A stretch of 64,000 nucleotides of DNA from Bdellovibrio sp. NC01 (GCF_006874625.1 NZ_CP030034.1:2108001-2172000), one strand, 5' to 3'; counted from the stretch's first letter, positions 1-46,563 are shown. Numbers and translations are program-made. Notes: generated from the sequence alone by a model not told the origin.

Positions 1-1412
1 TTTAGAATCGTATCACCAAAATCCTTGGACTCAAAAGTTGGAATAGCTGCGAGCGAACCAAATCTAATATCAGGGCCATAAGTTGTTTCAGTTCTAACCA
101 AATCAGTTTCAACAGTCTTTGAGTTATTATCACTTATGTCAGTTTGCTCATATGAACCATCTGGATTCGTTTTAACACGGCGATAAGTGTTATCGGGATA
201 TCTCACCATTTCGTACTGGGTTTCTCTGTTAAGAGCAGTAGACAGTGAAATTCCTTGCAATCCATAATTAAAGTTCATGTTTAGATTCGTAATATTTCCG
301 GCATCATTAGTATCTTGGATTAATTTTCCAGCTTCGTCATAACTTAGATATGTTGTGTTTCCATTTGGCTTAACAAAAGTTTTTAAAAGCTCGGTACTAG
401 CTACATATGACATTCGATAAAAGTCGCCGTTTGGAAGAATCACTTTCACAAGTTTATCTGCAGAATACTCTAAGTGAGTTACCAATCCTGATGAAGTGGT
501 GATTTTAATTAAATGCCCACTTGAATCACGTTCAAAGTTGGTAAGGTTGCCATAAGCATCAGTTATAGAGCTGATTCGATTTGAATTGTATATGAACGAA
601 TATTTTGTAAAACCAGTTAATGAACCTTTTGTAGCAATCTGCTTGCCTGTCGAATCAAAAATAAATACCTCGCCATCCCCTAAAACCAGATACGTCCCGT
701 CCGGTTGTAATAGTTTAGCTTTTACTGCGCTACCACCGGATCCCAAAAATAATCTTTCATTTGCTATATCATAAAAATTTATTCCACTGATACTCCAGCC
801 CAAATCATGAAACTTTGGTTGAGTTCCGATATTTGTGTAAGTTGAGATATACTGGGAAGTAAAAGATGATGTATAAGTTAGAGAAAACGGAGTTCCAAAA
901 ATAGGAATTGATTCCGACATTGACTGATCATCGACTCGAATAAATGAACCTGTCTTACAATCTCCGTCAGCCGGATCGCTTGGTGGTATCACGTACTCCA
1001 TCGCGTTTGCAGTTCCACTAACATTAAACAACTGAGATGATCCATCCGATTGCCATATACCAAGCACGGTCACAGAAACATTTTTTACGCCGGCCGAGGT
1101 GCCGACAAACTCAAGTTTATATTCACATGATCCTCCAAGAAGCATTTTTCCGGAACAACCATCTTGGGTAATTTTATATTCAGAACTACCACTAAGAATT
1201 AGATTTCCAAGTTGAATAGGTTGATTAACAGAAATTTCCAAAATCACCCACCCAAGCTGTCCAATCCCTAACGTTCCAAAATCATAAGAATAGTTAGTTG
1301 TTCCTTTTCCCTTATTTAAAACTATAATTTTTTTTTGAGCCGCAGTTGGGGCAGCCTGTACGGTCACAAAACCTAAAATTACCAATAAAATTTTAAAAAA
1401 AACATTTCGCAT
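1..1412 (-). CDS. Secreted Rhs/YD-repeat protein, N-terminal part (cut by left edge)
   Basis: An open frame of 470 codons starts at ATG 1412 and runs off the window. Residues 1-20 form a signal peptide. Residues about 40-120 look like an Ig-like domain of the choice-of-anchor type, with the LLGGSCEYKLEF signature. A YD-repeat stretch with Rhs character follows (for example SITDAYGNLTNFERDSSGH and FVKPNGNTTYLSYDEAGKL). YD repeats build hollow beta shells that often enclose a C-terminal toxin; that end is not visible here. The start lies 8 nt after the stop of the preceding gene, whose TGA overlaps the putative ribosome site (TGAGGT), so the gene is the last visible member of the operon. It is probably exported to the periplasm or beyond. 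The tip type and any immunity gene lie outside the window. Confidence 0.85.
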   Translation of the reverse strand, partial: MRNVFFKILLVILGFVTVQAAPTAAQKKIIVLNKGKGTTNYSYDFGTLGIGQLGWVILEISVNQPIQLGNLILSGSSEYKITQDGCSGKMLLGGSCEYKLEFVGTSAGVKNVSVTVLGIWQSDGSSQLFNVSGTANAMEYVIPPSDPADGDCKTGSFIRVDDQSMSESIPIFGTPFSLTYTSSFTSQYISTYTNIGTQPKFHDLGWSISGINFYDIANERLFLGSGGSAVKAKLLQPDGTYLVLGDGEVFIFDSTGKQIATKGSLTGFTKYSFIYNSNRISSITDAYGNLTNFERDSSGHLIKITTSSGLVTHLEYSADKLVKVILPNGDFYRMSYVASTELLKTFVKPNGNTTYLSYDEAGKLIQDTNDAGNITNLNMNFNYGLQGISLSTALNRETQYEMVRYPDNTYRRVKTNPDGSYEQTDISDNNSKTVETDLVRTETTYGPDIRFGSLAAIPTFESKDFGDTIL

Positions 1413-1420
1413 CACATACC

Positions 1421-3919
1421 TCAACGAAAGAAAATTAAGAACTCTGATGAATAGCCTGGCCAAGGGACAATGATACTGGCTGCAACGGGATCAGAATTGA
1501 TTTTTGCCCAAAATGGATCAATTTGTGCCCCACTAGTTTTGAAAAAGCGGCCGTCAGCCCAAATCCGCAAAATGTGACTTCCATTTGCGGAATCATTTGC
1601 CAATTCAATCAGTTTTGTCGCAGCCATTTCACGTTCGTAAACCTGTTCCGCAGCCTCTACCTCGTTCTTGGCTGCAGCCAAATTATACCAACTAGGAGAA
1701 TATCTAGCAGCATCTCCGAACTCACTTCCATAACCTAACGGAGTACCCCCATTCATCGGCGACAGTAAGGTAAAAAACGTCGAGTAGTTGTCTTCCAAAT
1801 AAGCCACGTACTTTGCGACTTGGGGAAGAACCCATTCAGTTCCACCTTCGCCAATTGCGATTTTTGTGTTTCTTGAGTCCAAAAAATTGTAATAAAATCC
1901 AATTGCAGGAAGCTTTCCAATAGTAAGAACTGCCGTATCGTCATGAGGTCCCTCGCTAATAGCCTCAACCGAAACAGTTGCTTCACTTTTTTCCGGAAGT
2001 TTAAAGTCGTAAGGTGTCGCAAATTCAAATGTGACATCTGATTCAAGAATTCCAGATAATGGGAAGAATGATCCTACGATTGAAGAAGCTGAGTTTAACA
2101 AGCTTCCGTCAAGCGATACACCTGCTACGTTTACATTGAGCTTTAAATCTGAAAGTTTATCACCAGGGGTACCGGTTACCTTCACGTGACCGTCAACCTG
2201 TGTTTTTCCATTAGCATAGAATGAAGATCCTACGCTTAGAGCCATAACGTCTTTATTTAAAGAAGCAGCAAGTTGAAGTCTTGATCCATAAATAGGAGCA
2301 ATCTGAAGAAGACTGTCATATAAATCATCCATGACATTCGTAACCGTTAACTTTATCTCTACCGTATCCCCAATCTCATTCATGATTTGAAATTGCATCC
2401 ACTGAGACAAAGCATTTGCATCGAACGCATTTCTTCCCAGGCTTCTCATGCTTCCACTTATCGAATTAGAATATCCAGAGCTTGATCGGTATGAAATTGT
2501 GTATGTGTCGTCGTATTCTGTATCTTCATATCCATTGAAAATCTCCAATGTTTTGAATCGATAATTGATTTTTAGATTTTTCTCAGTAGCTACAAAGGTG
2601 TGTGATGTTGTTTTTGCGCCAACACCAGCTGTTGAAAGAATCAAGGAACATTGACCTAGAAGACAATCTTCATCTTCAAATACGCGAATGCTCTTCTCAT
2701 TTAATATTTTTCGCGTCTTTCTTTCTAAACCATGAATTTTATTTTTTGGTTTAATGAGAAAATTAGAAAGGTCCGATGTGATAGGAGCTCTGTAAACTTG
2801 CCCAGAAGTTAGATCCCATCCTGATAAATCATAATTATAGTTTAGATTTTGGGCTTGAACAGAACCAACGGTAGATAAGGTCACCGATGCCGTGTCAATA
2901 TTTGAAGCCAACGTTCCCGCGGCAAATCCATTTGTAACATATGCTTGATAGTTTAACATCATGTTTGCAGGAAAATTAGTGATAAATATTCGACCCGTTG
3001 AATCTGACATAAGACTTTGAGAAACTTTGGAACCGACAGCATTGATATTTGCGGTAGCATTTTCAACTGGAGTGCCATTTACATCTTTCAAAGTTATGAC
3101 TTTACTTTTTGAACCGGCCCAGAATTTAAACACAGCGAATAGTGGTTTGCCTAAATTATCATATCCGTAAAATCGAATTGTATTCTCACCATCCACAAGC
3201 TTTTTCTGAACAATTAACGAATTGGGGTTTAAAAAGAATTCTGACGTTTGTAAAACTACCCCGTTTAAAAAGACGGTGAAGTCAGAATACTTATTGCTAA
3301 GGCTGACGCCAGTCACGCTTACAACAGGGTTCGTAAATAGATCATTGTAGTCATTAATTATAACACCGCCGAGAGACAAAATACCGATAGATGATTCAAC
3401 GATTGGGCGCGCAAGAATTTTTACTGAAGTTGAATAGATCACAGATCTTAAATTGACCTTTTTGCTGTTAAGGTCTGCAAGTTGGGCTTGAAGTTTAGAT
3501 TTTTCAGTTTCAAGAATTGAATTTGGTCCTGATTGAAGAAGTTCGTCAATCTTAGCGACTCTTAAACCTAAGCTACTAATTTGCGCTATGTATGCATTTT
3601 CTTTAGACTCATCGACAGCGTAAACTGAAATATCTAAGTATTTTGCAAATCCTTCTGATCCAACTACTGCTCCCTGGTAAATATATTCCTTACCGGATTT
3701 CTGAAGTTGAACTGCTTGTGAATCAAAGATGCCTTCAACTTTGACCGTTAGTCTATTGTCAATGGATACCGGCACATTTTTAACACGAACTTTGGGAGTT
3801 TGACCTGAAAAATAAAGGCAGCTTGGCACACATGAAACCGATATTGCTGGATCCAATGCTAATGCGGCTGATCCAACTAGAAGAGACGTTATTAAAAGAA
3901 CTATTTGTTTACCAAACAT
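1421..3919 (-). CDS. Large secreted multidomain protein of the modular RCC1/Rhs operon
   Basis: This 832-residue protein begins with a signal peptide (residues 1-21). Residues about 22-170 resemble the module seen in the four upstream genes: beta strands, a heptad-like helical pair (around KIDELLQSGPNSI to LADLNSKKVNL), then a return strand. A carboxypeptidase-regulatory-like Ig domain follows near residues 280-360 (VITLKDVNGTPVENATANIN). The rest is beta-rich and I do not recognise it. No catalytic motif is visible. Its ATG overlaps the 3' end of the upstream gene by 11 bp, which suggests translational coupling. Its stop sits just before the Rhs gene, a position where an Rhs partner or carrier would be expected. 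That role is inferred only. Confidence 0.85.
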   Translation of the reverse strand: MFGKQIVLLITSLLVGSAALALDPAISVSCVPSCLYFSGQTPKVRVKNVPVSIDNRLTVKVEGIFDSQAVQLQKSGKEYIYQGAVVGSEGFAKYLDISVYAVDESKENAYIAQISSLGLRVAKIDELLQSGPNSILETEKSKLQAQLADLNSKKVNLRSVIYSTSVKILARPIVESSIGILSLGGVIINDYNDLFTNPVVSVTGVSLSNKYSDFTVFLNGVVLQTSEFFLNPNSLIVQKKLVDGENTIRFYGYDNLGKPLFAVFKFWAGSKSKVITLKDVNGTPVENATANINAVGSKVSQSLMSDSTGRIFITNFPANMMLNYQAYVTNGFAAGTLASNIDTASVTLSTVGSVQAQNLNYNYDLSGWDLTSGQVYRAPITSDLSNFLIKPKNKIHGLERKTRKILNEKSIRVFEDEDCLLGQCSLILSTAGVGAKTTSHTFVATEKNLKINYRFKTLEIFNGYEDTEYDDTYTISYRSSSGYSNSISGSMRSLGRNAFDANALSQWMQFQIMNEIGDTVEIKLTVTNVMDDLYDSLLQIAPIYGSRLQLAASLNKDVMALSVGSSFYANGKTQVDGHVKVTGTPGDKLSDLKLNVNVAGVSLDGSLLNSASSIVGSFFPLSGILESDVTFEFATPYDFKLPEKSEATVSVEAISEGPHDDTAVLTIGKLPAIGFYYNFLDSRNTKIAIGEGGTEWVLPQVAKYVAYLEDNYSTFFTLLSPMNGGTPLGYGSEFGDAARYSPSWYNLAAAKNEVEAAEQVYEREMAATKLIELANDSANGSHILRIWADGRFFKTSGAQIDPFWAKINSDPVAASIIVPWPGYSSEFLIFFR

Positions 3920-4976
3920 TGTGTCCCTCCGTAAATGGCGCTACGACTTCAAACGACTGACTTACTGGAGGAATAATATTTTCCCAAAGCGTGCTTTGAA
4001 GGCTAGATAAATGAGCAATCGTTACGGTCAACTGAGCCGCTTTAGCTTGGAAGTATGCCTCAGCAAGTTCGTCAGAAATGTTTGCCTGAGCTAAGTAGTC
4101 AGCTTTCTTTTGATTTGCAGCAAGCAAGACTGCTTTTATCGCTTGGACTTTCTTTTCTGAACGAACTTTCAAATTAGCTGAAATAGTCCAGTTACCTAAA
4201 TTTGCTGAAATGAGTTGCTCGCTTGCGCAAGTAAAATAGGTTTTATCCATTTTTTGAGTGGCGAAAGAAATTGCTGAAATTGCCTCAATCGCACTGCAAT
4301 CCACACCGTAATCAAATGGGCCATCTTCATTTCCTAGAATGCCACCTACGGATACATAAAATAAAGCATGTTGACCAACCGAGAATTCAGAAAGTGAGTT
4401 CGCTGGTTCAATTGTTAATAGCGGCGTTGAAGAAAGATTTATTTTAGTGGATGAGACATCAAAAAAGAAATATTGAGATGAAACCTTAATTCGGTTTCTG
4501 GCCTCCATCGCGCTAACTGATTCAATCAAAGCAAGTTTTTCATTCTTTTCTTGAAGAAGAAGCGCAATTTTGGTCGGCTCAACTTCATTGTTGATATTCG
4601 CATCGATTTCGTCCACTAGTTTTTGATAGCTAAAGATTGATTCACGGTAAAATTGCGCAAGCTTTTTATCTTGAACGTATACGGAAACCTTCCATGAATG
4701 TGACCCCACTTCCGTTAGTGGCGAGGTCACGGATATGGATAAGTTGTTCGCCAACTGCAATACTTCAATTGGATTTCCATCTAGTGAGCCCTCAACGTAT
4801 GTTTCAACTGAGCTATTTGTTGGGAGAATTTTTGTATATGCTATTAATACAGCACTCTGACCAACAGCGTATTTCGTTGCACTTAGCTTAAAATCTAAGA
4901 ATTGAGGGGCAGCAAAAGCGCTATCAAAAGAAAAAAGCGCGAGCCATCCCATTATTGTTAAAATTAACAATTTCAT
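3909..4976 (-). CDS. Secreted protein made of two beta-sandwich/helical-hairpin modules
   Basis: 355 residues with a signal peptide (MKLLILTIMGWLALFSFDSAFA). Two copies of the operon's shared module appear, at roughly residues 25-180 and 185-350. Each has Ig-like strands opening with a pattern like LSATKYAVGQSAVLIA, a predicted antiparallel helical pair (KLVDEIDANINNEV ... EKNEKLALIESV), and a closing strand with alternating aromatics (YFFFDV; QSFEV). There is no enzyme motif. The gene is 33 nt after the 183-residue gene and overlaps the next gene by 11 bp. A structural or adhesive component is the most natural guess, based on architecture alone. Confidence 0.85.
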   Translation of the reverse strand: MKLLILTIMGWLALFSFDSAFAAPQFLDFKLSATKYAVGQSAVLIAYTKILPTNSSVETYVEGSLDGNPIEVLQLANNLSISVTSPLTEVGSHSWKVSVYVQDKKLAQFYRESIFSYQKLVDEIDANINNEVEPTKIALLLQEKNEKLALIESVSAMEARNRIKVSSQYFFFDVSSTKINLSSTPLLTIEPANSLSEFSVGQHALFYVSVGGILGNEDGPFDYGVDCSAIEAISAISFATQKMDKTYFTCASEQLISANLGNWTISANLKVRSEKKVQAIKAVLLAANQKKADYLAQANISDELAEAYFQAKAAQLTVTIAHLSSLQSTLWENIIPPVSQSFEVVAPFTEGHNVW

Positions 4977-5009
4977 TTTACTCTCATTTCAAAAAAAAGG
5001 AAAACCTAC

Positions 5010-5561
5010 TTATTGAACGATAAAGTTAAAGCTTTCAGTTGTGACCAATGTCTTCAATGCCGACAAAGAACTCAATGCACTAGTTTGGTCGGAAACTTTT
5101 GCAGCTCTAGCCGCTTGAAGAACCGCGAGATTACCTGCATCTTCTTCCATTGAGATTTGACCATCAAGAATAGCGATGTCTTGTTCAATTTGCGAAAGAT
5201 TTGCGCGAATGACCTCCGCTTGAGCTTTATCTTCGAGGTAATAGGAAACACTCAAAAAGTGATTTCCAACCGTCGCACTCTCAAGTGCAGCGATCCACAG
5301 CCCTGTCGTTGGGTTTAACAATCCAATACTCAGACCATCTAATTTTGCTTCAAGAATTGTATTCATTTCTTCAGAAGAAGAAAAATCAGTATCGATATTT
5401 AAAAACAGCGTAATCTGATCATTCGAGTGAGGAGCTTCTGGCTGCATTTGAACATTTAAGATACTTGTTAGGAATTTTGAGTCAAAACTTCTAAGCTTAA
5501 CTGCTGCGAATGCATTTGATTGAAGACCTAACGAGAATAATAATGAAAACAATAATTTCAT
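5010..5561 (-). CDS. Small secreted single-module protein of the same operon
   Basis: 183 residues with a signal peptide (cleavage near SNAFA). It is a stand-alone copy of the module found in its neighbours: beta strands (DQITLFLNIDTDF, LEAKLDGLSIGL, HFLSVSYYLEDKAQAE), a helical hairpin (LSQIEQDIAILDGQI ... AARAAKVSDQTSAL) and a closing strand ESFNFIV at the very C terminus. The protein ends exactly where the module ends, which helps define its boundary. It lies 12 nt after the RCC1 gene. The function is unknown. A single-module protein next to multi-module ones could be a cap or subunit of an assembled fibre (inference). Confidence 0.8.
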   Translation of the reverse strand: MKLLFSLLFSLGLQSNAFAAVKLRSFDSKFLTSILNVQMQPEAPHSNDQITLFLNIDTDFSSSEEMNTILEAKLDGLSIGLLNPTTGLWIAALESATVGNHFLSVSYYLEDKAQAEVIRANLSQIEQDIAILDGQISMEEDAGNLAVLQAARAAKVSDQTSALSSLSALKTLVTTESFNFIVQ

Positions 5562-5573
5562 AATGTTTATTTC

Positions 5574-8042
5574 CTAAAAATTGAAGTGATTAAAGCGTTT
5601 AAAGTTAAGAGGTTCCACGATCGGAACTGGTAAAGGTTGGTCCGTTGTATTTCCGTTGCCAAGCATGTAACCCGAACCAGACCCCCAACATTTAATTTTT
5701 GCGTCGATAATACCGCAAGTTGAGTTACCGTTAGTACTAACACCAGTTGCACTACCGTAGATAATATTAATATCTTTTGGAACTGGCGCAGAGTTTTGAG
5801 TTGTACCGTCACCAATATTTCCATAATAGTTTCGCCCCCAACATTTAATTTTACTATCAGTGATTGCGCATGCTGATGCATCTCCCACCGTTATGGACGA
5901 AGTCCAAGTCGTAATATTACTTACAGATACAGGAACTGAAGATTGGAATGAGGCTCCGTTATTTCCAAATCCATCTTGTATTCCGTCGCCCCAACATTTC
6001 ACACCAGTGGTATGAGACAGACAGACGAGCTTATTTAGCATTCCCACCGCAACTCCAGTGATGCCCAGCGAGTTAGAACCAGTAACTAACGTTGGAGAGC
6101 GCCTAAGAGTTGTTGTCCCATCACCGATCTGCCCATACGAATTGTCACCCATGCACAGCACGCGCACTGGATTGATGTCAAAAAGACATGTATTCGCCGT
6201 ACCAGCTGAGATCATGACGACTCTGTTTGGCCCAAGCACCAATTGTGGCGTATTGAAGCTTGCCGTGGTTGAATTAATTCCTAGCTGGCCACTGCTATTG
6301 TCGCCCCAACAATATGCTTGAAGAGAACTAACTGCACATGAATGTCGATAACCCGCAGTTACTGATGTGACTGTGCCCACAGGCAAAGAAGTGATTTGTG
6401 TTGGTGTTAGGTAATTTTGTATAGTCGTTCCAACTCCGACCTGTCCGTAATTATTTCTACCCCAACAAAAGAGCGTGCTATTTTTATTAGCGCAACGATG
6501 AGAGTCCGTGCCTGCAACGTCTATTACACCCGATGACATTGTAGGAACGAGAGTGGGAACCGCACGACTAATCGTATCTCCCATACCCAACTCACCATTA
6601 ACATTTGAACCCCAACAATAGAGCGCGCCGTTTTTAATTGCGCAGACGGAACTGCCTCCTGCAACAACCTTATCCCATGCAAAATCATTGTCGTGAATTA
6701 ACACCGCCTGCACTGTATTCGATATTCCTGAATAGTCAGTTCCGCTCGCTGTTAAGACAATATCCGCATAGTGATCACCTTCGATAACATTGTCGTCATA
6801 AGCACCTACCCAAACTTCTTGATAAACATTCCAATTATGAGATGTAAAAGTTAGTGATGAAATCGACTTGATCTGAATTCCTGTATCGAAGTTAACTGTA
6901 ACATCAGTATCAGGGTCAGAAGTTAAGCGAACTTTGAGAATCTTATCCCCCCCTCCCTCGGTTAACTCCAAACCACCACTTGGTTTCAGATATTGAATAC
7001 CTTTCGGCAAGGAGCCGTCTTTGATTTTGAAGTCGAATGCTGTTGAGTCAAAAGGCTGATACTTCAAGCCTAAATTGGATAATGCAGAAACTAGCATATC
7101 GATTTCTGAAATCTGTAACTCATAGAAAGCGATACGTTTTGGGTCGTTACTTCGATTCTTTTCCTGTATATATTCAGCCTTTTTTACGACTGCCAAGCTG
7201 ATTGCTTCTTTAAATTTTGTGTACTGATTTTTTAATCTGTACTTAAACTGAGGAAGGAACTGTCGCCAACCAGAAGCTGAAGCAGGAAATGCAGGGGAAC
7301 TAAAGGTTACTTGAGTGGGAGAATTTATAGTTTTGTCTAAAGTAATTGCTGGTTGAGAACCAATCGCTGGAATTGTAGCATCGAATGTCCACTCTGCTTC
7401 TTCGTCATTCAACGACGTTCCGCTTAAATTTACTGTGAATTGAGCCGAGGAGCCAACAAGATAAATCCCCGTGCTAGAGTCTGCGGAGATAGATAGAGTT
7501 GGAAGTGCCCGATTAACTAAGCTCTTTGTCGGAGGATTCACTATAAAACTAACTGTTTGTGTGCTCACTGAACTTCTGATCTTATTAAGTTGAACATTTG
7601 CATTTTGCAAAATCGCGTTATCACGTGCTACTTGATTTTGTAAAACTGCAATGACTTGTACATTTTTTTCATCAGCGATTTTACGTTGAAGGTCGCGGAC
7701 TTCCTGTTCGAAAAACACGATTGTTTCGTTCAACTTTTGCGCTTCAAATTTATTTTGAATGAAAGTTTGAACTTCCCAAGAATAACTACCCGCTGGAAGG
7801 TCTTTCGTCACCGCATATGCAACACTCGATGAAATTGGTGTGATTTTCATGCTTACTGCATTAAGTTTCGCTGTGAAAAAGTATTCATTTCTTGAATCAG
7901 TTGGTTGAGTAACTACCCTAACAACCAAAACTGCTCGCTCTCCGGCTGAATAAGTTGCTTTACTCGTAGATAAAGCAATATTTCCATCAGCAAAAGCCTT
8001 CAAACATAAAAGAAAAGAAATAACTAAAAATATGTACTTCAT
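5574..8042 (-). CDS. Secreted RCC1-propeller protein with Calx-beta-like and modular N-terminal domains
   Basis: 822 residues. In order: signal peptide (1-18); two beta/helical-hairpin modules (about 20-170 and 180-340); a Calx-beta-like domain (about 355-455, containing LTSDPDTDVTVNFD and EGDHYADIVL); then seven RCC1-type repeats to the C terminus. Each repeat carries two cysteines, one in a C-A-I-like strand and one in CWG or C-x-G, for example CAIKNGALYCWGSN. Paired cysteines in every blade fit an exported, disulfide-braced seven-bladed propeller. RCC1 propellers normally bind proteins; nothing suggests an enzyme. The gene starts 9 nt after its upstream paralogue, behind a GGGAAC ribosome site. 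It looks like a tandem duplicate of that gene. Confidence 0.9.
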   Translation of the reverse strand: MKYIFLVISFLLCLKAFADGNIALSTSKATYSAGERAVLVVRVVTQPTDSRNEYFFTAKLNAVSMKITPISSSVAYAVTKDLPAGSYSWEVQTFIQNKFEAQKLNETIVFFEQEVRDLQRKIADEKNVQVIAVLQNQVARDNAILQNANVQLNKIRSSVSTQTVSFIVNPPTKSLVNRALPTLSISADSSTGIYLVGSSAQFTVNLSGTSLNDEEAEWTFDATIPAIGSQPAITLDKTINSPTQVTFSSPAFPASASGWRQFLPQFKYRLKNQYTKFKEAISLAVVKKAEYIQEKNRSNDPKRIAFYELQISEIDMLVSALSNLGLKYQPFDSTAFDFKIKDGSLPKGIQYLKPSGGLELTEGGGDKILKVRLTSDPDTDVTVNFDTGIQIKSISSLTFTSHNWNVYQEVWVGAYDDNVIEGDHYADIVLTASGTDYSGISNTVQAVLIHDNDFAWDKVVAGGSSVCAIKNGALYCWGSNVNGELGMGDTISRAVPTLVPTMSSGVIDVAGTDSHRCANKNSTLFCWGRNNYGQVGVGTTIQNYLTPTQITSLPVGTVTSVTAGYRHSCAVSSLQAYCWGDNSSGQLGINSTTASFNTPQLVLGPNRVVMISAGTANTCLFDINPVRVLCMGDNSYGQIGDGTTTLRRSPTLVTGSNSLGITGVAVGMLNKLVCLSHTTGVKCWGDGIQDGFGNNGASFQSSVPVSVSNITTWTSSITVGDASACAITDSKIKCWGRNYYGNIGDGTTQNSAPVPKDINIIYGSATGVSTNGNSTCGIIDAKIKCWGSGSGYMLGNGNTTDQPLPVPIVEPLNFKRFNHFNF

Positions 8043-8051
8043 GGTTGTTCC

Positions 8052-10511
8052 CTAAAGAAGGTCTCTGTTTTTTCGAAAGAGTGAAGGGTTTACGATTGTT
8101 ACCGGAGTAAGTGAATCCGATGCTATCCCGTTACCCAACTTATAGCTTGACCCAACACCCCAGCATTTGACATTGCCATCGATAATTGCGCAGGTACTGT
8201 AACCACCTGACGCCGTAAAAGTGGCTTTGTTATAAGTGTCGGCAATCTCAGTAGCGTACTGAGCTGAAGTTGTGGATCCGTTACCATTCTGTCCACTATT
8301 GCCCCATCCCCAACATTTTACTCGATCAGAAACAACGGCACAAACGTTGGCCGTACCAGCTGAGAGCGCTACAACGTTATCTGAGATTCCAACTACGCTC
8401 GCTGGGATAGCATAAGTACCGTTAACTCCAGTACCCATAGAGTAATAGATACCATCACCCCAACACTTGACACCGTTTTGATAACCAAGACACCCCTGTC
8501 GACTACCGGCTGCAACGGTCACACTATTGATGGTACCCAAAGAGTCTGATCCAACTACAAGAACAGGACTGATACGTTTAATGGTAGTACCATCCCCAAC
8601 CTCTCCTGCACCATTACCTCCAGAACAATAAACTTTATTGTCAAGAGTGACAAAGCACGAACTTGTCGGACCCGTCGCAATGGATTTCGCCTGAAATCCT
8701 CCGGGAACAAGCGTTGGCACCAACAAGGACGTAGCTGTTGAATTTACTCCTGCCTGACCATAAGAATTATCTCCCCAACAGAAAACATTTTTGGAGCTAC
8801 TTTTAATTGAGCAGCTCGCTTCATTCCCAGCAGCAATGTCACTAACTGTCCCAGCACCAGACACTAAGAATGGCGTCAGTACATTAGTTCCAGATGAGTT
8901 AATACCAATCTGTCCTTTGTTGTTCCGACCCCAGCAATAAACTTGTAAGTTTTTAATTGCGCATCTATGAAACCCATTTCCAACTACTTTCAAAACACCC
9001 GAGTCCATTGTCGGCACTAACGTTGGTACCGTACGAGTAACGGTGTCACCCATTCCAAGTTGTCCGTATTCGTTGCCACCCCAGCAATACAAAGCACCTT
9101 TTCGAATGGCACAGCCTGAATCTGCAGCGATCGAGACACTACTCCAAACATCGTCATCCAAAATAGTGATTAAAATGCTTGAAGTGATGCCGTTATAGTC
9201 TCCACCAGTACTTGAGATCTGAAGCGAAGATGAATGATCACTTTCAGAAATATTGTCATCGAATGCCTGAATAGAAACGGATTGCGGTATGTTCCAGTTA
9301 TGAGAATTAAAAACAACGGGCGCAACCGCAGTAATTTGTGAATCATTCGTAAATGTAACGAAGACATCGCTATCAGGGTCAGAGGTTAACCTAATTTGAA
9401 ATGTTTTTGATAGCCCACCTTCAGAAAGAACAAAACCGTCAACAGGAGGCGTAATTTGAAAGCCTTTTGGCAAAGATGCATCTTTAACTTTGAAATCATA
9501 AGAAGCGGCCATAAACGGCTGGTAACTTAAACCCAGATCGGAAAGCGCTGCTATCAGAAGATCAATTTCAGAAATCAGTGATTGATAATATGCGATCTCT
9601 TTTGGATCATTAGACAGATTCTTATCTTTAATGAATTCATTTTTTCTAATCACTGCTAAACCAACAGCTTCTTTAAATTTCGTGTATTGGCTTTTTAAGC
9701 GATACTTAAATTTAGGAACAAACTGACGCCATCCTGCACTGGAAGACGCAAAAACTGCTGAATTGAATGTGACTTGTGTTGCTGAGTTAACAGTTTTTGT
9801 TAATTCAATGGCTGGTTTGGAACCTACCGCGGGAATCTCGGCATCATATGTCCAATCAGCAGCTTCTCCATCGAAAGTCGTTCCACTTAATGTCACAGAG
9901 AATTGCGCAGCAGCGCCAACCAAATAGATTCCAGAAATATTGTCGGGCACAATTGACAGCGTTGGAACTGCACGATTTGCCAAACCAAATGTTGGGGGAT
10001 TCACACTAAAATTAATAGACTGAGTGCTAACTAAACTTCGAATTTTGTCTAACTGAGCTCGTGCTCTCTGAATAATCGAATTGTCTCGCGCTAGTTGAGC
10101 ATTTAAAGCTGCCAATACTTGGGCGTTCGTTTCAGCTTCAATTTTTCGTTGCAGATTCAAAACTTCTTTTCCAAAGAAGACAATTGTTTCATTCAACTTT
10201 TGAGCATCATATTTATTTTGAACGAAGGTTTGAACTTGCCAGACAAAATTTCCAGCAGGAAGTTCATTGGTCACTGTATATGCGACACTAGAAGAAATAG
10301 AAGTAATCTTAACATTTGTTGAATTGAGTTTTGCTTTGAAAACAAACTCTGACTTTGAATCCGAAGGAGTCAACATCGAACGAGCAATCAATACGGCACG
10401 ACTTCCTGAGGTGTACGAAGCTTTGCTTGTTGATAACATCAATGTGCTTTGATCCGCTAACGCCGATACGGCGATAGAGAGCAATAGCAATACACTTGCT
10501 AATACTTTCAT
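8052..10511 (-). CDS. Secreted RCC1-propeller protein, paralogue and first gene of the operon
   Basis: 819 residues, counted from ATG 10511, which follows AGAGGGG by four bases. A longer frame from a TTG 15 nt upstream would place that ribosome site inside the gene. The domain order is the same as in the next gene: signal peptide (MKVLASVLLLLSIAVSALA), two beta/helical-hairpin modules, a Calx-beta-like domain (LTSDPDSDVFVTF, ESDHSSSLQI) and seven RCC1 repeats with a cysteine pair per blade (such as CAIRKGALYCWGGN). The two proteins align along their whole length, so they arose by duplication. About 600 bp of non-coding DNA upstream should hold the operon promoter; I see no clear consensus. 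Confidence 0.9.
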   Translation of the reverse strand: MKVLASVLLLLSIAVSALADQSTLMLSTSKASYTSGSRAVLIARSMLTPSDSKSEFVFKAKLNSTNVKITSISSSVAYTVTNELPAGNFVWQVQTFVQNKYDAQKLNETIVFFGKEVLNLQRKIEAETNAQVLAALNAQLARDNSIIQRARAQLDKIRSLVSTQSINFSVNPPTFGLANRAVPTLSIVPDNISGIYLVGAAAQFSVTLSGTTFDGEAADWTYDAEIPAVGSKPAIELTKTVNSATQVTFNSAVFASSSAGWRQFVPKFKYRLKSQYTKFKEAVGLAVIRKNEFIKDKNLSNDPKEIAYYQSLISEIDLLIAALSDLGLSYQPFMAASYDFKVKDASLPKGFQITPPVDGFVLSEGGLSKTFQIRLTSDPDSDVFVTFTNDSQITAVAPVVFNSHNWNIPQSVSIQAFDDNISESDHSSSLQISSTGGDYNGITSSILITILDDDVWSSVSIAADSGCAIRKGALYCWGGNEYGQLGMGDTVTRTVPTLVPTMDSGVLKVVGNGFHRCAIKNLQVYCWGRNNKGQIGINSSGTNVLTPFLVSGAGTVSDIAAGNEASCSIKSSSKNVFCWGDNSYGQAGVNSTATSLLVPTLVPGGFQAKSIATGPTSSCFVTLDNKVYCSGGNGAGEVGDGTTIKRISPVLVVGSDSLGTINSVTVAAGSRQGCLGYQNGVKCWGDGIYYSMGTGVNGTYAIPASVVGISDNVVALSAGTANVCAVVSDRVKCWGWGNSGQNGNGSTTSAQYATEIADTYNKATFTASGGYSTCAIIDGNVKCWGVGSSYKLGNGIASDSLTPVTIVNPSLFRKNRDLL

Positions 10512-11119
10512 AAATCCCCTCTGCAATTTTTCAATTACAAACGGTTGTTTATTTGTGTCGTTATTGCAACGTTAAAATTTCTTGATGCCCATAGGTGTCG
10601 TATAAACTTTAGTTTGTTGTTTTTATTTGATTCAAAAAATGTTTTGAAATAATGGTGCTGAATTCTGGCAGTTAAAAAGTTAATAATTGTGCATTTATTT
10701 GAAGTGATGTTGCAGTCGAAATTTTCTTACAGGTTTTATCTGTATTGGAAACGGAAATAGTTTTTTCGTCGTTTGTGAACATGAATAACTTTCCCCAGCC
10801 GTCTTTTAGAAATAGTCAATTATAGATGGTGCATTTCTGATTCACACAACAGGGGATTAAGGTGACCAATGCTTGCAGGCCCTCACCTTCACTTGGAAAC
10901 TCACTGCAACTAGATAGTATTTCTTACTGTTCCATCTAAATTAATATATTCAACAACGTAACAATTTCCAATTTCTAAGGTTAGCATTTTACCACCGAGA
11001 TCTTTCTTGCTTTTAACTGAATTTAGAATATCGGATTACACCATTTTTCTTAAATCAACAGCATCCGTTTTCCTTTGTCATAACAAAAACACAAAAGAAC
11101 GATGGCGGAGACCGTTAGA
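10512..11119. other. Intergenic region upstream of the RCC1 operon
   Basis: 608 bases without a convincing complete gene. It should contain the promoter for the minus-strand operon that starts at 10511. An inverted repeat AAGGTGA/TCACCTT (10859-10889, 17-nt loop) is present but lacks a T-run. A short coding-looking remnant lies at 10910-11060 and is listed separately. Confidence 0.5.
10910..11060 (-). pseudogene. Remnant of a small secreted-protein gene
   Basis: Read on the minus strand, a frame with protein-like character (LTLEIGNCYVVEYINLDG, ending TVRNTI) stops at 10910-10912. It is interrupted by an in-frame TAA just before SDILNSVKSKK. The text before that stop (TDAVDLRKMV) also reads like protein. 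The GNCYVVEYIN stretch resembles the G-H-x-Y-x-I segment of the two secreted proteins at 14222-15472. A 25-residue peptide from ATG 10987 could still be translated. I favour a decayed gene fragment; the evidence is short. Confidence 0.3.
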
Positions 11120-11918: not shown

Positions 11919-12512
11919 CTATTGAGCTTTCCAATACTGGTAAGCCTCGGCTGGAGTTTTCTTTTCATGGCTTTGCTTTAGCCCTTTAAAGGTCTTAACA
12001 AATATTTTTTCACTTACACCAGGACATCTCACCTCTAAAAAGCTTATGAATTCCAACCACTCTTCTTCAGCATTTCCTAACCAGCATGGTGTTACTAGAA
12101 ATCGACCCTTGGGTTGGATATAAATGAACGCCAGGTAAGGAGCTTCCATAACAATTTGAGTGATATCGGAATATGAATATCCTGCTGTCCCAGTCAGACT
12201 TCTGATTTCAATTCTATCTTTTAAGAAAGTCCAATGAGCTTTCTGAAGCGATAACCCAAAAATAATATAAAGAACGAAGAACATCAAAACAACAGAGACC
12301 ATTGAAAGCACTAACGCGAAACCCACATCATAAAGAGAAATATTGAATTGTTTGGAAATGGCCCTTGATAAAAGACACAAACAAGAAAAACTAACAATAT
12401 ATAGCAATACAACTTTCCAAGTAAGTAATTTGTTCCTGCGCAAGTTAATCAGGAAATAGTCTGAGACTGTAGGCGCAATTGTTCGATAAGAAAATACGTA
12501 TTTATCCTTCAA
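11919..12512 (-). CDS. YcxB-like membrane protein
   Basis: 197 residues. Two transmembrane helices (about 32-52 and 62-88) are followed by a cytosolic domain with the strand pattern of YcxB/PH-like proteins (FLKDRIEIRSLTGTAGYSYSDITQIVMEAPYLAFIYI). The start is a TTG at 12512, seven bases after AGAGG and inside the last codons of the upstream gene, so the two are translationally coupled. Members of this fold are common as single genes of unknown role and also appear as immunity-type proteins. No toxin gene is adjacent. Confidence 0.6.
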   Translation of the reverse strand: MKDKYVFSYRTIAPTVSDYFLINLRRNKLLTWKVVLLYIVSFSCLCLLSRAISKQFNISLYDVGFALVLSMVSVVLMFFVLYIIFGLSLQKAHWTFLKDRIEIRSLTGTAGYSYSDITQIVMEAPYLAFIYIQPKGRFLVTPCWLGNAEEEWLEFISFLEVRCPGVSEKIFVKTFKGLKQSHEKKTPAEAYQYWKAQ

Positions 12513-12831
12513 TGATTAACCTCTCAACAATCGAATCACTCAATGGAGTAGTCGCTCTCCAAATTAAAAGCGCGCAAACAACAACAAGAACTCTTCCGAG
12601 CACCACGTATTTACGAATGTTGCTTTTCTCAGCCGCGGCATTGATCTTTTGATCAAACCCCATGATGGCGATCCACGGCGCCCCAACTCTTGGTCCACTG
12701 AATGACATGTCGTCAGTTTGGTCTTTAAGAATTTGATTGAGTGGCAAAGCGATAAAGATCTGCAAATACACGACGAGCGATAGTCCCGCCAAAACAGCTA
12801 TAAATAAGAGGCCACCTTCAGTTAACTCCAC
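12502..12831 (-). CDS. Two-helix membrane protein of unknown function
   Basis: 109 residues starting with GTG. One hydrophobic helix lies at about 6-30 (LLFIAVLAGLSLVVYLQIFIA) and another at about 78-95 (YVVLGRVLVVVCALLIW). The loop between them is polar. It sits three bases after the gene upstream and overlaps the next gene by 11 bp, in a compact four-gene run (14003 to 11919). I cannot assign a family. Confidence 0.55.
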   Translation of the reverse strand: MELTEGGLLFIAVLAGLSLVVYLQIFIALPLNQILKDQTDDMSFSGPRVGAPWIAIMGFDQKINAAAEKSNIRKYVVLGRVLVVVCALLIWRATTPLSDSIVERLIIEG

Positions 12832-12834
12832 AGC

Positions 12835-13578
12835 CTAGTCACTCATATAGTGTTGATCGAACTTTTGCGTTTTAGGATTCCAATATAAAGATGAATTTGC
12901 ACTTTCATATTTAAAGAGATTAATTGCGTCGTATTTAAATGTAACAGTTGGAGTATCACCGTCAGTACATTCAAAATACCCTTTACCACAAGCTGTTTGA
13001 TATGTACCAGGTTTATAAAGTTCGATTCCCATTTCAGCTGCTGGGAGTTCGTCATGAATCGCTAATGTAGGAGTAGAATTTCTATTGCAATTCCAAAACA
13101 CGTAAACTGCAATTTCAGTCATCTCACGATTTGCAGTTATTTCTGCTAAATCAGTTATACCATCACCATTAAAGTCTCCAGAAACGTTTATGTATGGCCC
13201 GTTCTTATCGTCGTAACGCCATTTATTATCTGCATTGAACAATCCAAAGTTTGCGACCTTTTTCCACGATTTTGGTTGATAATACATAGGTATTTCTCGA
13301 AGCTCATAACTCATCACAGTTGAAACAGCTGCGATAAAAATACTTATTATGAGAACACCACCAGTTATGAGTATGGGCTTCGGCTTAAAGAAATATTTAA
13401 ACGTAAAAAGGAAAATCAAGATTGCGGTGGGTATCAAAAACCAAATCCAGTAATGAGGTGGAATCATCCCCACAGTCCTTAAGAATAAAATGCAGAGTGT
13501 TTGAGTCCAAAGACCCGCCATGATTAGACAGTAAATAATTGTCGCCCAAATCTCATAGGCTCTGAATATAGACTTCAT
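12835..13578 (-). CDS. Membrane protein with a C-terminal FG-GAP/VCBS-like calcium motif domain
   Basis: 247 residues. Three hydrophobic helices occupy residues 10-100. A soluble domain then contains GDFNGDGITDLAEI, the D-x-N/D-x-D-G loop typical of FG-GAP/VCBS repeats that bind calcium. Several cysteines (WNCN, ACGKGYFECTDGD) suggest an exported domain. ATG 13578 overlaps the DUF3592 gene stop (ATGA). The motif makes a ligand-binding or surface role more likely than an enzyme, but the function is unknown. Confidence 0.6.
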   Translation of the reverse strand: MKSIFRAYEIWATIIYCLIMAGLWTQTLCILFLRTVGMIPPHYWIWFLIPTAILIFLFTFKYFFKPKPILITGGVLIISIFIAAVSTVMSYELREIPMYYQPKSWKKVANFGLFNADNKWRYDDKNGPYINVSGDFNGDGITDLAEITANREMTEIAVYVFWNCNRNSTPTLAIHDELPAAEMGIELYKPGTYQTACGKGYFECTDGDTPTVTFKYDAINLFKYESANSSLYWNPKTQKFDQHYMSD

Positions 13579-14003
13579 TTCGAATTAGCCTTCTTAAATG
13601 GGGGTTCAGCTCTTTTGCGATTTACGATGTATGAAATGAATTGGAATATCACCAAACAGATTGAAGCAATGAGTGACAGCTTAAAATATACCCAATCTCC
13701 CCAATTGCTCTGAACGATATGATGAACCTGACCTGCTTCATCTATTGTATAAAAAACCTGCACACCTTCACTATAATCAGCCCAACTCTCAATAGTTGTG
13801 CCTTGAATCTTGTGGCCGCCCGCTTCGAATTCATAGTGAACGATTTTAAAGCTTCGGCTACCGCCACGGTTTTCTAAGCTTGTAATGATCGCTACAGTTG
13901 AATTCGCATCTTTCTTGAAATTGATAAGTCTCTGGCTCGCGAGATAGCCCGCACTCATAACTACGAGAGCTAAAATAATGAGAAGGTGTTTCTTAAGATC
14001 CAT
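13575..14003 (-). CDS. DUF3592-type membrane protein
   Basis: 142 residues from ATG 14003. A GTG seven codons upstream is possible, and neither start has a strong ribosome site. A transmembrane helix at each end (about 5-23 and 112-130) brackets a beta domain with the DUF3592 pattern: VHYEFEAGGHKIQGTT then SEGVQVFYTIDEAG. DUF3592 proteins are small two-helix proteins of unknown biochemical role. First gene of a tightly packed four-gene minus-strand unit. Confidence 0.6.
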   Translation of the reverse strand: MDLKKHLLIILALVVMSAGYLASQRLINFKKDANSTVAIITSLENRGGSRSFKIVHYEFEAGGHKIQGTTIESWADYSEGVQVFYTIDEAGQVHHIVQSNWGDWVYFKLSLIASICLVIFQFISYIVNRKRAEPPFKKANSK

Positions 14004-14221
14004 TACTTCAAAGGATATATACACATAGATGTTTATACAAACATCTGATACCTACCCCGACCCATTTTAATAGTTTCCGTTCCGGGATTTGAGGTCTCCA
14101 ATCCTGGAATTTTCAGTAAAAATGTCCTTCTTTTCGATTTTAAGAGGGTTTTACGATGGGCACCGTATTGCTTTGATGGGTCAGTGTTCGACTTTAACAA
14201 ACAACCTTACGGAGACTTTTT

Positions 14222-14911
14222 ATGAAATCTTTGATCGTATCCCTAGCACTTATCTTGAGCGTTTCTTCTTCATTTGCGGCTGACCAAAACGGCATGCCTG
14301 AAGTTAATGTTATTAAAACTGTTGCCTTAACTGGACAGACTTACGAGAACCCAACTGCCACTGGAGCAAAGCTCTTTCTCTCTAAGCACTCACTCGAAAC
14401 AAACCGTGCAGATCTTGAGCTTGCGTTTTGGAGCGAAAAAGGTCCTATCGTTGTGCCCGATAGCTCTCCTGACAGTGGCTTTGCCTCCATGATGTCAGAT
14501 TTAGGCATTCTTCCTCTAGAAGAAATCAACGGAAGAAAACTTGTTCTAGATGGAGATAAACAAAGACAGTTCCAACAATACGTGATTTTACAAGTTGGAC
14601 ACTCTTACGCAATCAATTTGAGTACGCATTCAGCTCGCGGCTTTTACATGTTTAAAGTAGAAGACGCTGATCCAAAAACGAAAACATTGATCTTGAGCTA
14701 CGCTGTATCAGTGTATGAGACGATCAATCCGATCAATGAAGTATATCAATCAGAAAATCCAAAACGCGAAGAAAAACCTGAAGCGAAAGTAGCATCGCAA
14801 GAAGTGGAATTGAAATCGGCATCCAAGTTATTTGGTAAAAAAGTAAATTACTCTGGATTGCTGAAGCAACCCGTTCCAACAAAATCGTCACGTAAAAACA
14901 AACTTAACTAA
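14222..14911 (+). CDS. Secreted protein, related to the next gene
   Basis: 229 residues with a signal peptide (MKSLIVSLALILSVSSSFAA). GGAG lies seven bases before the ATG. The mature protein carries GHSYAINL followed by GFYMFKVEDADP, a pattern repeated in its neighbour as GHCYLIYN ... VIAMFRV, so the two are distant paralogues. The C-terminal 60 residues are lysine-rich and probably disordered. Function unknown; periplasmic or secreted location predicted. Confidence 0.75.
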   Translation: MKSLIVSLALILSVSSSFAADQNGMPEVNVIKTVALTGQTYENPTATGAKLFLSKHSLETNRADLELAFWSEKGPIVVPDSSPDSGFASMMSDLGILPLEEINGRKLVLDGDKQRQFQQYVILQVGHSYAINLSTHSARGFYMFKVEDADPKTKTLILSYAVSVYETINPINEVYQSENPKREEKPEAKVASQEVELKSASKLFGKKVNYSGLLKQPVPTKSSRKNKLN

Positions 14912-14926
14912 TAAAGGAATAATGTC

Positions 14927-15472: not shown

Positions 15473-15554
15473 TTTTTCGTGAGTTCGAGACTTTAACTGT
15501 TGGAGGTCATATAAAAAATTAAAGAAGAGTCTGTAGTTTTTTATCCTTTGAAGC

Positions 15555-43037: not shown

Positions 43038-44345
43038 TTACGTTAACGAAACTTTTATTTTGTACGCTCTTGAATTCGGATACTTTTTAATTACGACACA
43101 CTCACCTACTCTAAGAGACTTTACAGTATTCGGGTGGATTACAAATTCTTCTACTTCTCTGAGAGATTTATCACCAGTTGGAAGATCCCAAAATAACAAC
43201 CTCTTTGTTCGCTCTGTTTCTTTATAGACTGTTCTTGTACCTGCTCTGCTCGAAACAGCCTCAGCTGATTCCTGAACCGGTTGCAAAAACGAATAAAGAC
43301 TTGAAATGTTAGTTGCAAGCCTCTTAGCGAAAGTATCACTCACCTTATCCAAATCAGACATGCTCTGATGCCCTAGAACTAAACACATTTTAGAACTTCT
43401 TGCTCTATCCGGAAATGCAGTGAAATCTTCGTGTGCAATATCCGGAAACTCATCGATCATCACGGTGAAGACTTTTCGGTCTATTGCCGCTACTTCCGCA
43501 TCGATTCGAGCGGAGGTTGCAATAATATCGCGAATTAAAATTCTTCCCAGTGACTTCGCAGACTCCCCATATCTTCTCGAATCCAAAAATATAAATACTA
43601 CCTTTTGTCCCTTAATTTCCGAGAACAAATCTATTCCGTTTTGGTCTTCACGAAGAAAGATTCCAAAATCAGCTAGCACCAATGATTCTATTTGCGATCT
43701 TAGACCGCTCAGATTCAGATATGTCGTGCTGGAGTTAAGGTATGTGTAACAATCCTCTAGTGCTTTTTTAACTTTGGGCTCTGAGTCTGGTACTTTCACA
43801 CATAAGTCAGCAATATACTCAACAGAGCTTAAACCTTCTAATACTGCGGCTAGATCAAAATTAAATGACTGATTATCTCGAAGCCAACAATATCCAATAA
43901 ATAGTTTTAGTAAGTAGCTACTGCTCTGAGTCTCATAAAACTTATCGCTCCACTCAAGCGATCGCATGATCTTATCTCTGAGCTCAGTAGCATTTCCAAC
44001 TTTCACGAAATTATAAGTTCCAGAAAACTCAGCATGCGAAATTGAAAAGATCTTTAGATCGTTCTCTCTGCCACTAGCTTTTACGGCCTCGCGCATTTGA
44101 TTTATGGTCTCTATGTCTCCCTTTAAATCAATCCACAAAAGCCCCTGTCCTTGAAAGAGCCTTTGTTTCATTATTTTATTGATTAATACTGTTTTACCAA
44201 AGCCGCTCGCTCCAAGCACATGAACATGATGATTAAGTTCTCCGTCAGTTAAGTAATCATACTGAAAGAAAGAACCTTCAATCCGTCCGATTTGGATTGA
44301 AGGTTCCTTGGGAGAAAATAGATAAGACAATAAAGAATTAGGCAT
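43038..44345 (-). CDS. TraD/TraG-like DNA-transfer ATPase
   Basis: 435 residues. Walker A HVLGASGFGKT (41-52) and a Walker B-like VMIDEFPDIA (about 290) with RADSR-type helix (AFPDRARSSKMCLVLGHQSM) place it with type IV coupling-protein/HerA-FtsK ATPases. The short N terminus lacks the usual membrane helices. Such proteins pump DNA to a conjugation channel. It is the third gene of a minus-strand set with two replication-relaxation-like genes, close to the tRNA scar, and so is part of the element's transfer module. No relaxase gene is visible. Confidence 0.8.
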   Translation of the reverse strand: MPNSLLSYLFSPKEPSIQIGRIEGSFFQYDYLTDGELNHHVHVLGASGFGKTVLINKIMKQRLFQGQGLLWIDLKGDIETINQMREAVKASGRENDLKIFSISHAEFSGTYNFVKVGNATELRDKIMRSLEWSDKFYETQSSSYLLKLFIGYCWLRDNQSFNFDLAAVLEGLSSVEYIADLCVKVPDSEPKVKKALEDCYTYLNSSTTYLNLSGLRSQIESLVLADFGIFLREDQNGIDLFSEIKGQKVVFIFLDSRRYGESAKSLGRILIRDIIATSARIDAEVAAIDRKVFTVMIDEFPDIAHEDFTAFPDRARSSKMCLVLGHQSMSDLDKVSDTFAKRLATNISSLYSFLQPVQESAEAVSSRAGTRTVYKETERTKRLLFWDLPTGDKSLREVEEFVIHPNTVKSLRVGECVVIKKYPNSRAYKIKVSLT

Positions 44346-44361
44346 TTGCTTGTAGAGAAAG

Positions 44362-45108
44362 TTACGATTTTGGTTTTGGCTTTTGTGGTGTTGGTGCTTT
44401 TAAGTCTTCAAAGTACTTCTTATATGGCATAACAGAATAGTTTTTAGTATCTGGCGGCAGTGCGCGCTTAATATCACCCATGACCTTTTCATCAGTGCAG
44501 AAGAAAATCACACCTTCAATTTGTTGTTGTTTCATTTCATCTGTTTTTAAGACTTTAGAGTATAAATCCATACGCTCACGGTACTGCTTTAGACCTTTAC
44601 CAGAGATTTCCATTTCCATGAAGTAGCCTTTACCGTTTGCTTTCATGCATACCGCATCTGGAAGGTCTTTAAATTCTCTTAAGAAAAATGGAACGGTTCT
44701 GAGCTGCTCTTCAGAAATATATTTTGATAGAAACCCAAGTTCTTCAAACCGGATTCTTAAGTTATTGATGTGAAGGTCATGGTTAACTCTGAAAGGAAAT
44801 ACTTTACTGTAAAGCTCTGGCAAGCGTTTTTCCGGATACGCTTTCACCACTTCTTCTCGGCCTTTTAACGTTAACAGAACAAGGCTTTCAAGTGTCAGCT
44901 CCTTATCTTTTGTTTTAATAAGCTCACGATCAAAAAGTCGTTTCAGTGCTCCTTCAACTTTACCACCGTCGTAGAACTTTCTAATTAATTGATCCATCGT
45001 CATGTAGCGCATCTCTAAGATGTACTTAAGCATTTCGATTTCAATCTTCGTTAAAGCCTCGGCTTGCACACCTTTAACTGTCGCATTTGTTGGTGCGTAG
45101 TTTTTCAA
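44362..45108 (-). CDS. Replication-relaxation (Replic_Relax) family protein
   Basis: 248 residues. The winged-helix N terminus (IEIEMLKYILEMRYMTMDQL, IRKFYDGGKVEGALKRLFDR) is followed by a conserved region (RVNHDLHINNLRIRF) and a restriction-like core (YFMEMEISGKGLKQYRERMD). Members accompany plasmid and ICE mobilisation genes and are thought to help relaxation complexes. Ends 16 bases before the ATPase gene. Confidence 0.75.
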   Translation of the reverse strand: MKNYAPTNATVKGVQAEALTKIEIEMLKYILEMRYMTMDQLIRKFYDGGKVEGALKRLFDRELIKTKDKELTLESLVLLTLKGREEVVKAYPEKRLPELYSKVFPFRVNHDLHINNLRIRFEELGFLSKYISEEQLRTVPFFLREFKDLPDAVCMKANGKGYFMEMEISGKGLKQYRERMDLYSKVLKTDEMKQQQIEGVIFFCTDEKVMGDIKRALPPDTKNYSVMPYKKYFEDLKAPTPQKPKPKS

Positions 45109-45211
45109 ATCTCTTTCCTTTCTTTTGCCAAAGGTAATTCTTTGGCTCTAGTTGTTTGAAACGAGATTTGATGCAAATGCTCAATCTTCACCCGTAATAA
45201 TATAACACTAA

Positions 45212-45985
45212 TTAGGATCGCTCGCCGGATGTTCCGCCAAAGAAATCCTGCCACGATACGATTTCAAAAAGTTCACCGTAGATCTTTGTTTCTTTAGATA
45301 AAAAATCAATCACCCAAGGTTTTGCTACCACATACAAAACTTTATCGAAGACGTTCACTTTGGTGTCCTTTGATCTCATCATCGATACGTACTTTTTTAT
45401 TTTTGATTGATAAATGGCTTTGGTTTTTGTAGTCGCTTCTACTTCTAAGGCGATACGTTTTCCTTCAGGGGTTTTAAAAAGTCCGTCCGGAACGTTAGAT
45501 AATAACAGACCGCCAGCTAAATCTTTGTTGGAGCGGAGTTTCTTATCAGAAATCCAAGAAGTGGCTGCGCGCTGGTTTTCTAATATAATTCTGGCTTCGA
45601 TCACTTTCTTGTCGTGGTCGAAGGTGTGGTGGTCGATGCCTTTCACAGGTTTAGAGACGTCGGCTTCTGGTTTTACTTTTTCTAAGATGGAATATCCTTT
45701 AACGGTTCCAAGGTAGTATTTGCGGCGTTCGGAAAAGGAATGGATGGGTTTAAGGTAGCCAGCTTTTGAGAGTTGTTGGAGGCGTCTCACGGCCCACTCG
45801 TCGCTTTTCGCTGGTTCGTTGGATAAGGTAACTTTAAAAAATTTTTCGAATACGTCTTGGACAGTGGCGAACTTCATGTCCAAGACGTATTCGATAATTT
45901 GGTAATCTCGTTCGGATAGAATTACGGAACGAGATTTTATATTTTCTGGTTTTGGTTTTATGCCTGGGAAGTTTAGTTGTTTCAA
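45212..45985 (-). CDS. Replication-relaxation-like protein, paralogue of the next gene
   Basis: 257 residues. Same plan as its neighbour: winged helix (SERDYQIIEYVLDMKFATVQDV), HHTFDHDKKVIEARIIL, then GKRIALEVEATTKTKAIYQS, a conserved E-x-E in the place of the nuclease-like core. First gene of the three-gene transfer set. The block upstream (45986-46476) is rich in inverted repeats and may be its site of action. Confidence 0.7.
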   Translation of the reverse strand: MKQLNFPGIKPKPENIKSRSVILSERDYQIIEYVLDMKFATVQDVFEKFFKVTLSNEPAKSDEWAVRRLQQLSKAGYLKPIHSFSERRKYYLGTVKGYSILEKVKPEADVSKPVKGIDHHTFDHDKKVIEARIILENQRAATSWISDKKLRSNKDLAGGLLLSNVPDGLFKTPEGKRIALEVEATTKTKAIYQSKIKKYVSMMRSKDTKVNVFDKVLYVVAKPWVIDFLSKETKIYGELFEIVSWQDFFGGTSGERS

Positions 45986-46476: not shown

Positions 46477-46530
<54 letters not shown>

Positions 46531-46563
46531 ATAAAGGCCTGATGGTAAACCATCGGGCCTTTT
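46531..46563. terminator. Terminator following the tRNA fragment
   Basis: AAAGGCCTGATGG-TAAA-CCATCGGGCCTTTT forms a strong stem. It probably belonged to the intact tRNA gene and also faces the convergent gene at 46576-47121. Confidence 0.85.

Follow-up and report, generated by a model that had tools for sequence, protein, structure and literature searches.

A Bdellovibrio operon of secreted Ig/hairpin proteins and its probable link to a polymorphic Rhs toxin

In Bdellovibrio sp. NC01, six predicted secreted proteins, the last of which belongs to the Rhs family, are encoded in one run at the beginning of the window, i.e., the whole 64,000-nucleotide stretch analyzed here (NZ_CP030034.1:2108001-2172000, corresponding to C1:2108001-2172000 of one 3.98-Mb contig). 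The question raised by this locus is whether the six proteins act together. The operon was interpreted as encoding a Sec-exported multi-subunit scaffold tied to a polymorphic Rhs toxin and carried on an integrative conjugative-type element, with a probability of roughly 0.6. As judged from sequence comparison, the module-bearing proteins of this operon and Rhs probably constitute one machine that displays or delivers variable toxins, because distant relatives keep a set of the same kind adjoining or fused to Rhs.

Operon genes and the repeated module

The operon-like run consists of six minus-strand genes with gaps of 9, 12, and 33 nucleotides followed by an 11-nucleotide overlap. Counted from the first letter of the window, the genes are g824 (8052..10526, 824 residues), g822 (5574..8042, 822 residues), g183 (5010..5561, 183 residues), g355 (3909..4976, 355 residues), g832 (1421..3919, 832 residues), and the gene of the Rhs/YD protein, whose N-terminal part occupies 1..1412; this protein has 1245 residues in all, and its remainder, read from L009:9726, lies outside the window. 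The first start of the Rhs open reading frame is a TTG at 1463, which overlaps g832, and the ATG at 1412 is the likely start as read from the sequence. According to a simple rule based on hydropathy and A-X-A (not a trained predictor), all six N-termini fitted a Sec signal peptide, and the same crude rule detected neither a lipobox nor a later transmembrane helix in any of the six proteins. Accordingly, the six-gene minus-strand operon, the predicted signal peptide on each product, and the Rhs/YD identity of the last gene, as claimed by the original prediction, were all confirmed, the last of these with certainty from Pfam and NCBIfam matches.

All five non-Rhs proteins contain one homologous domain, hereafter called the module. 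An iterated profile located eight modules in the window, namely, two in g824, two in g822, one in g183, two in g355, and one in g832. Seven had been counted originally, although the distribution given with that count (2+2+1+2+1) itself sums to eight. The shared module was verified using a held-out profile trained on 30 modules of other genomes only, with 1200 shuffled window proteins as the control. This profile recovered all eight window modules at E-values of 3e-28 to 8e-5, while the best shuffled protein reached 0.55. When the profile was trained on distant families, six of the eight were recovered, and g832 was reached at an E-value of 0.6 only.

The modules, all on the minus strand, fall into classes that are described below. 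In the case of g824, the first module (9999..10442; class II, profile E 6e-24) and the second (9483..9962; class III, 1e-5) took their limits from homology with the model of g822. The two modules of g822 lie at 7536..7979 (class II, 3e-28) and 7020..7499 (class III, 7e-8), and both are covered by AlphaFold model m931e580d3ad1. Apart from its signal peptide, g183 is a single bare module of class I (7e-24; AlphaFold model m656d5b94a9cc, mean predicted local distance difference test (pLDDT) score of 80), as had been proposed, and g355 likewise consists of a signal peptide and tandem class II-III modules only (8e-28 and 8e-5). Finally, g832 has a signal peptide and one module at about 3416-3814 (9e-6), followed by a C-terminal part without a known family.

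Besides the signal peptide and tandem modules, g824 and g822 each carry a Calx-beta-like segment and an RCC1 propeller. The RCC1 repeats of g822 (5610..6680, minus strand; end approximate) matched Pfam RCC1 at 9e-48 and those of g824 (8076..9149, minus strand; ends approximate) at 2e-35, each in six stretches. Of the extra domains originally assigned to these two members, RCC1 was thus certain (E 1e-35 to 1e-50), whereas the Calx-beta-like segment had no Pfam match at E≤1, although it was found again in relatives.

Only window sequences (8 and 5 rows) went into the AlphaFold models, each of which had a mean pLDDT of 80. The modules of g183 and g822 were predicted with one topology, i.e., strands, a helix, a short turn, a second helix, and a closing strand; the differing folds that would have spoken against a common module were not seen among these three, and the five remaining window modules were assigned by sequence profile. 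The predicted fold is an immunoglobulin (Ig)-like sandwich with an antiparallel two-helix hairpin inserted before the last strand, and the hairpin of g183 comprises 27+27 residues. Across 64 modules, the hairpin showed hydrophobic residues at a regular spacing of 3-4 and a conserved E-T-D-P turn. The anatomy originally described therefore held for the Ig-like strands and the hairpin but not for the closing strand, in which alternating hydrophobic residues (L/F, F/I, V), not strictly aromatics, were observed.

The module regions matched no family in Pfam (E≤1) or NCBIfam (E≤0.5). When the PDB was searched by sequence with the module profile, the matches were all weak and of the coiled-coil type (best E 0.006), and the viral structure library gave no match at E≤0.001. 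By VIA structure comparison, the sandwich part is an ordinary Ig/FnIII domain (Z up to 9.7). VIA aligned the sandwich alone, to many Ig domains, and its list contained plain Ig/FnIII sandwiches only; the absence of hairpin-bearing Ig folds from that list was not regarded as proving a new fold. The best Foldseek match was domain N of GlgE (PDB 3zss; E 3e-4, TM-score 0.39), which is likewise an Ig-like sandwich with inserted helices but is part of a cytosolic enzyme and has no sequence similarity to the module.

Linkage of the module genes to Rhs

The distribution of the module was examined in a genus set of 24 genomes and a phylum set of 369 genomes. Tandem modules occurred in 7 of the 24 genus genomes, at eight loci including the window. 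At the usual locus, a protein with one module, either bare or joined to TIG and PKD domains, is found together with a tandem-module protein and an adjoining Rhs; the tandem-module protein carries RCC1 at seven of the eight loci. Rhs also adjoins the module genes at seven of the eight, in last position in the window, in first position at five loci, and divergently at one; a contig end cuts the Rhs gene at two loci, and a transposase-type gene intervenes at one. As the gene orders changed, the linkage of modules and Rhs has been kept through rearrangement. Related genomes had been named as the place where the genes might occur separately, and in the genus they stay together with Rhs at these seven loci. 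No module relatives were found among plasmids and viral contigs, or when two narrower module profiles were compared with a named genome collection. A profile of 13 tandem modules, intended for the same collection, contained no conserved stretch.

The remaining locus, L034 of genome G006, encodes proteins of 834, 186, 367, and 1053 residues in the order of the window and has no Rhs. The 1053-residue protein, which stands in the place of g832, combines a module, PEGA, and a C-terminus weakly like M15 peptidases (E 0.11, below the curated cut-off), and the gene after it is small, with a product that begins like a signal peptide. The C-terminus of g832 itself had no family in Pfam or NCBIfam, no relative in the genus, and no match to this 1053-residue protein. 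An M15-like peptidase was considered for it and dropped because no match whatever was found.

Twelve of the 369 phylum genomes gave matches, and related loci were examined in three other families, in two of which (genomes G100 and G354) the plan was repeated. In G100, the set extends over two contigs and comprises a LamG protein, a module protein with a helical part, a tandem-module protein, and a fusion in which a class IV module, PKD, NHL (TEN_NHL 3e-6), and YD/RHS repeats lie in one chain. This fusion ties the module to an Rhs shell within a single protein. G354 has a module protein, a tandem-module protein, a module protein with PKD and LamG, and Rhs, as well as another set, in which a PQQ propeller occurs. 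Other arrangements were also observed. Genome G303 encodes a protein of about 1240 residues in triplicate, and the single module of this protein is C-terminal rather than N-terminal (L087:10658-14425, L088:7255-10968, and 12210-15878). In two other families, a class I module is joined to a domain of about 370 residues that is conserved, largely helical, and without a Pfam family (L083:10523-12169, L084:6443-8089, and L085:6286-7908).

There are about four module classes, and they are conserved across families. In a module tree built by a quick method, in which half of the inner branches were unresolved, class I (the g183 type) and class III (the second of a tandem) were supported at 99 each, class IV (from the large gene that in G100 and G354 stands at the junction with Rhs) at 96, and class II (the first of a tandem) at 86. 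The classes span families, with 7 label changes compared with 28.9 after shuffling of the labels, and no shuffle was equally ordered. The class of g832 and its G006 counterpart is unsure because they pair on long branches. In an Rhs tree built by a careful method, one clade (100/99) comprised the seven module-linked Rhs proteins together with those of G021 and G022, and 14 other Rhs proteins of the genus lay outside it. Module linkage changed 2 times on this tree, compared with 6.3 in shuffles.

The Rhs protein, its variable effectors, and known systems

The window Rhs matched RHS_repeat (9e-22) and the YD shell (7e-29) in Pfam, and Rhs_assc_core (5e-16) and YD_repeat (2e-16) above cut-off in NCBIfam. 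Its N-terminus fitted a signal peptide by the crude rule, Pfam showed no PAAR and no TEN_NHL match, and the nearest solved shells were bacterial teneurin-like toxins (PDB 9ifo and 9pt5; E 2e-80). The C-termini of seven related Rhs proteins diverge past the DP-rich end of the core. In the case of L035, the C-terminus resembles YkuD/Tlde1 L,D-transpeptidases (E 0.0024 and 0.14, below curated cut-offs), and in that of L040 it has an HExxH motif. A 169-residue membrane protein starts 15 nucleotides downstream of the window Rhs, and in most relatives a small gene follows Rhs at -3 to 266 nucleotides. These downstream genes resemble the arrangement of toxin/immunity pairs.

A decayed or non-toxic window Rhs, with the present role of the operon being adhesion only, would agree with the interrupted relative in G022 and with the window C-terminus of about 100 residues, which matches no toxin family. 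However, the 1245-residue frame is intact, the Rhs core is conserved, and the membrane protein gene stands where an immunity gene would be expected; decay was thus considered highly improbable. Alternatively, the module proteins could be periplasmic or outer-membrane export helpers (chaperones or secretion parts) for Rhs and large effectors, outside the final particle. Signal peptides without anchors, helical hairpins of fixed length that could act as contact arms, and a module set that stays constant while the effector changes are all consistent with such helpers. Nevertheless, fusions of the module to adhesion-type domains and to propellers suggest surface exposure, and the operons have no constant membrane or usher-type protein in common. 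Export helpers therefore appeared quite improbable.

Several observations weigh against one machine that includes Rhs. The window Rhs itself has no module, and its C-terminus lacks a toxin match, as described above. In G303 the modules are unaccompanied by Rhs, Rhs is absent from the operon locus of G006, and no module genes go with the close Rhs relatives in G021 and G022. Moreover, signal peptides without a lipobox do not by themselves indicate a route across the outer membrane, and the linked loci are not independent because they share ancestry. Some of these facts also suit another explanation, namely, that the modules belong to surface adhesins or prey-binding proteins that act independently and were multiplied by duplication, and that Rhs is a toxin gene in its own right that accumulated in this variable region too. 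RCC1, TIG, PKD, and LamG are common in adhesive surface proteins, modules and Rhs each occur without the other (G303; G021 and G022), and the mobile element of the operon also bears another, unrelated Rhs. However, the Rhs proteins that adjoin modules are one clade among those of the genus, the linkage outlasts changes of gene order, a module and Rhs are fused in G100, and each module class stays recognizable from family to family. Independent adhesins were thus considered unlikely. The original proposal of one complex with Rhs as its cargo or tip is favored by the common fold, the presence of Rhs at seven of eight loci, and the G100 fusion, and it is weakened by G006, G021, and G022.

In the preferred reading of a scaffold tied to Rhs, one complex would arise by stacking or pairing of the Ig sandwiches, with the hairpins as rigid spikes or contact arms and the propeller, TIG, PKD, and LamG domains as binding heads. 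Rhs is best read as the cargo or tip, and the complex may hold its shell either on the cell surface or on a particle that is set free. This shell would carry a variable C-terminal effector, which by motif may be peptidoglycan-directed in some relatives. The toxins displayed would mostly be Rhs-shelled, with another effector as the cargo in some cases. Action would take place outside the cell, and the small downstream gene would protect the producer.

Parts of this plan are found in known systems. Rhs/WapA polymorphic toxins share with the window Rhs the RHS repeats, the Rhs-associated core, the variable C-terminus, and the small gene downstream; unlike them, the window Rhs has secreted Ig/hairpin proteins beside it as a conserved set. 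Going by its predicted signal peptide, it may be exported by that route and not as a type VI effector. Insecticidal Tc (ABC) toxin complexes are multi-subunit and combine an Rhs shell with a beta-propeller; the similarity is one of plan only, and no TcA-like pore-forming gene was present among the annotated domains of the operon. The teneurin-like proteins 9ifo and 9pt5 also have a YD shell, a polymorphic C-terminus, a downstream immunity gene, and secretion (PMC13018210). Their single chain combines an FN-plug, NHL, and YD, whereas the window Rhs has no NHL match, and the text describing them mentions neither RCC1 nor Bdellovibrio.

Another RHS-family protein, Bd0109, encoded at the hit locus and probably of the same genus as the window, was tied to pilus regulation, with no module proteins described, and a pilus-gene setting was described for other Bdellovibrio Rhs genes (PMC3818213). 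In the present genome, a 550-residue Rhs (L010:7994-9646) lies beside Tad/CpaF-type pilus genes. One genome paper (PMC5941755) gives RCC1 proteins of Bdellovibrio the annotation RTX toxin, and in the literature searched no paper joined Bdellovibrio, Rhs, and RCC1. The statement that no described system has this set thus holds for the families and literature searched; the kind of toxin is already known, and the partner set is what is new.

We tentatively propose, with less confidence than in the scaffold itself, that the operon may represent a new extracellular apparatus for toxin display or delivery. Such an apparatus would consist of about four paralogous Ig/alpha-hairpin classes, swappable propeller or adhesive heads, and an Rhs-caged or other hydrolase effector, would be patchy over several families of one phylum, and would, in this genome at least, travel on a conjugative-type element. 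The secreted partners linked to one Rhs clade are candidates for the missing parts that would explain how signal-peptide-exported Rhs/teneurin-like shells reach their targets. Moreover, the module defines a domain family for which the Pfam and NCBIfam searches gave no model, and the locus places a polymorphic Rhs toxin on a conjugative-type element in a probably predatory genus.

The mobile element and neighboring genes

The operon lies between a tRNA-Met gene with an adjoining integrase (6e-26) and an attR-like 56-bp copy (96%) of that gene at 46477..46532 (plus strand), which bounds the element. TrbI-like, TraG P-loop, and TraD-type genes lie between the two att-like ends; the TraD-type coupling protein and two replication-relaxation-like genes occupy 43038..45985 (minus strand). 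The element comprises window positions 1-46532, L009, and L096:12595-20000, and the G+C fraction inside it is mostly lower (about 0.38-0.43, compared with 0.43-0.46 outside). The features of an integrative conjugative element, i.e., an integrase at a tRNA gene, a flanking att repeat, and conjugation-type genes, were found, and by sequence the element of about 66 kb is integrative conjugative-type and inserted in the tRNA-Met gene. In an empty-site comparison, its flanks were not syntenic in the relatives examined. The patchy distribution of the operon in the genus may be explained by its riding on this element.

The same element carries a second Rhs protein of 1299 residues (29835-34241), with a small gene just downstream, which lies outside the module-linked Rhs clade. 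It also encodes a PRTase-CE protein (20634-21632; Pfam 7e-54), whose family may be part of an anti-phage or conflict system. Lastly, two secreted proteins with similar N-termini are encoded at 47191-49731 and 62953-64000. The first of these ends in a Peptidase_S74 chaperone, a plan known from the trimeric fibres described for Bdellovibrio.
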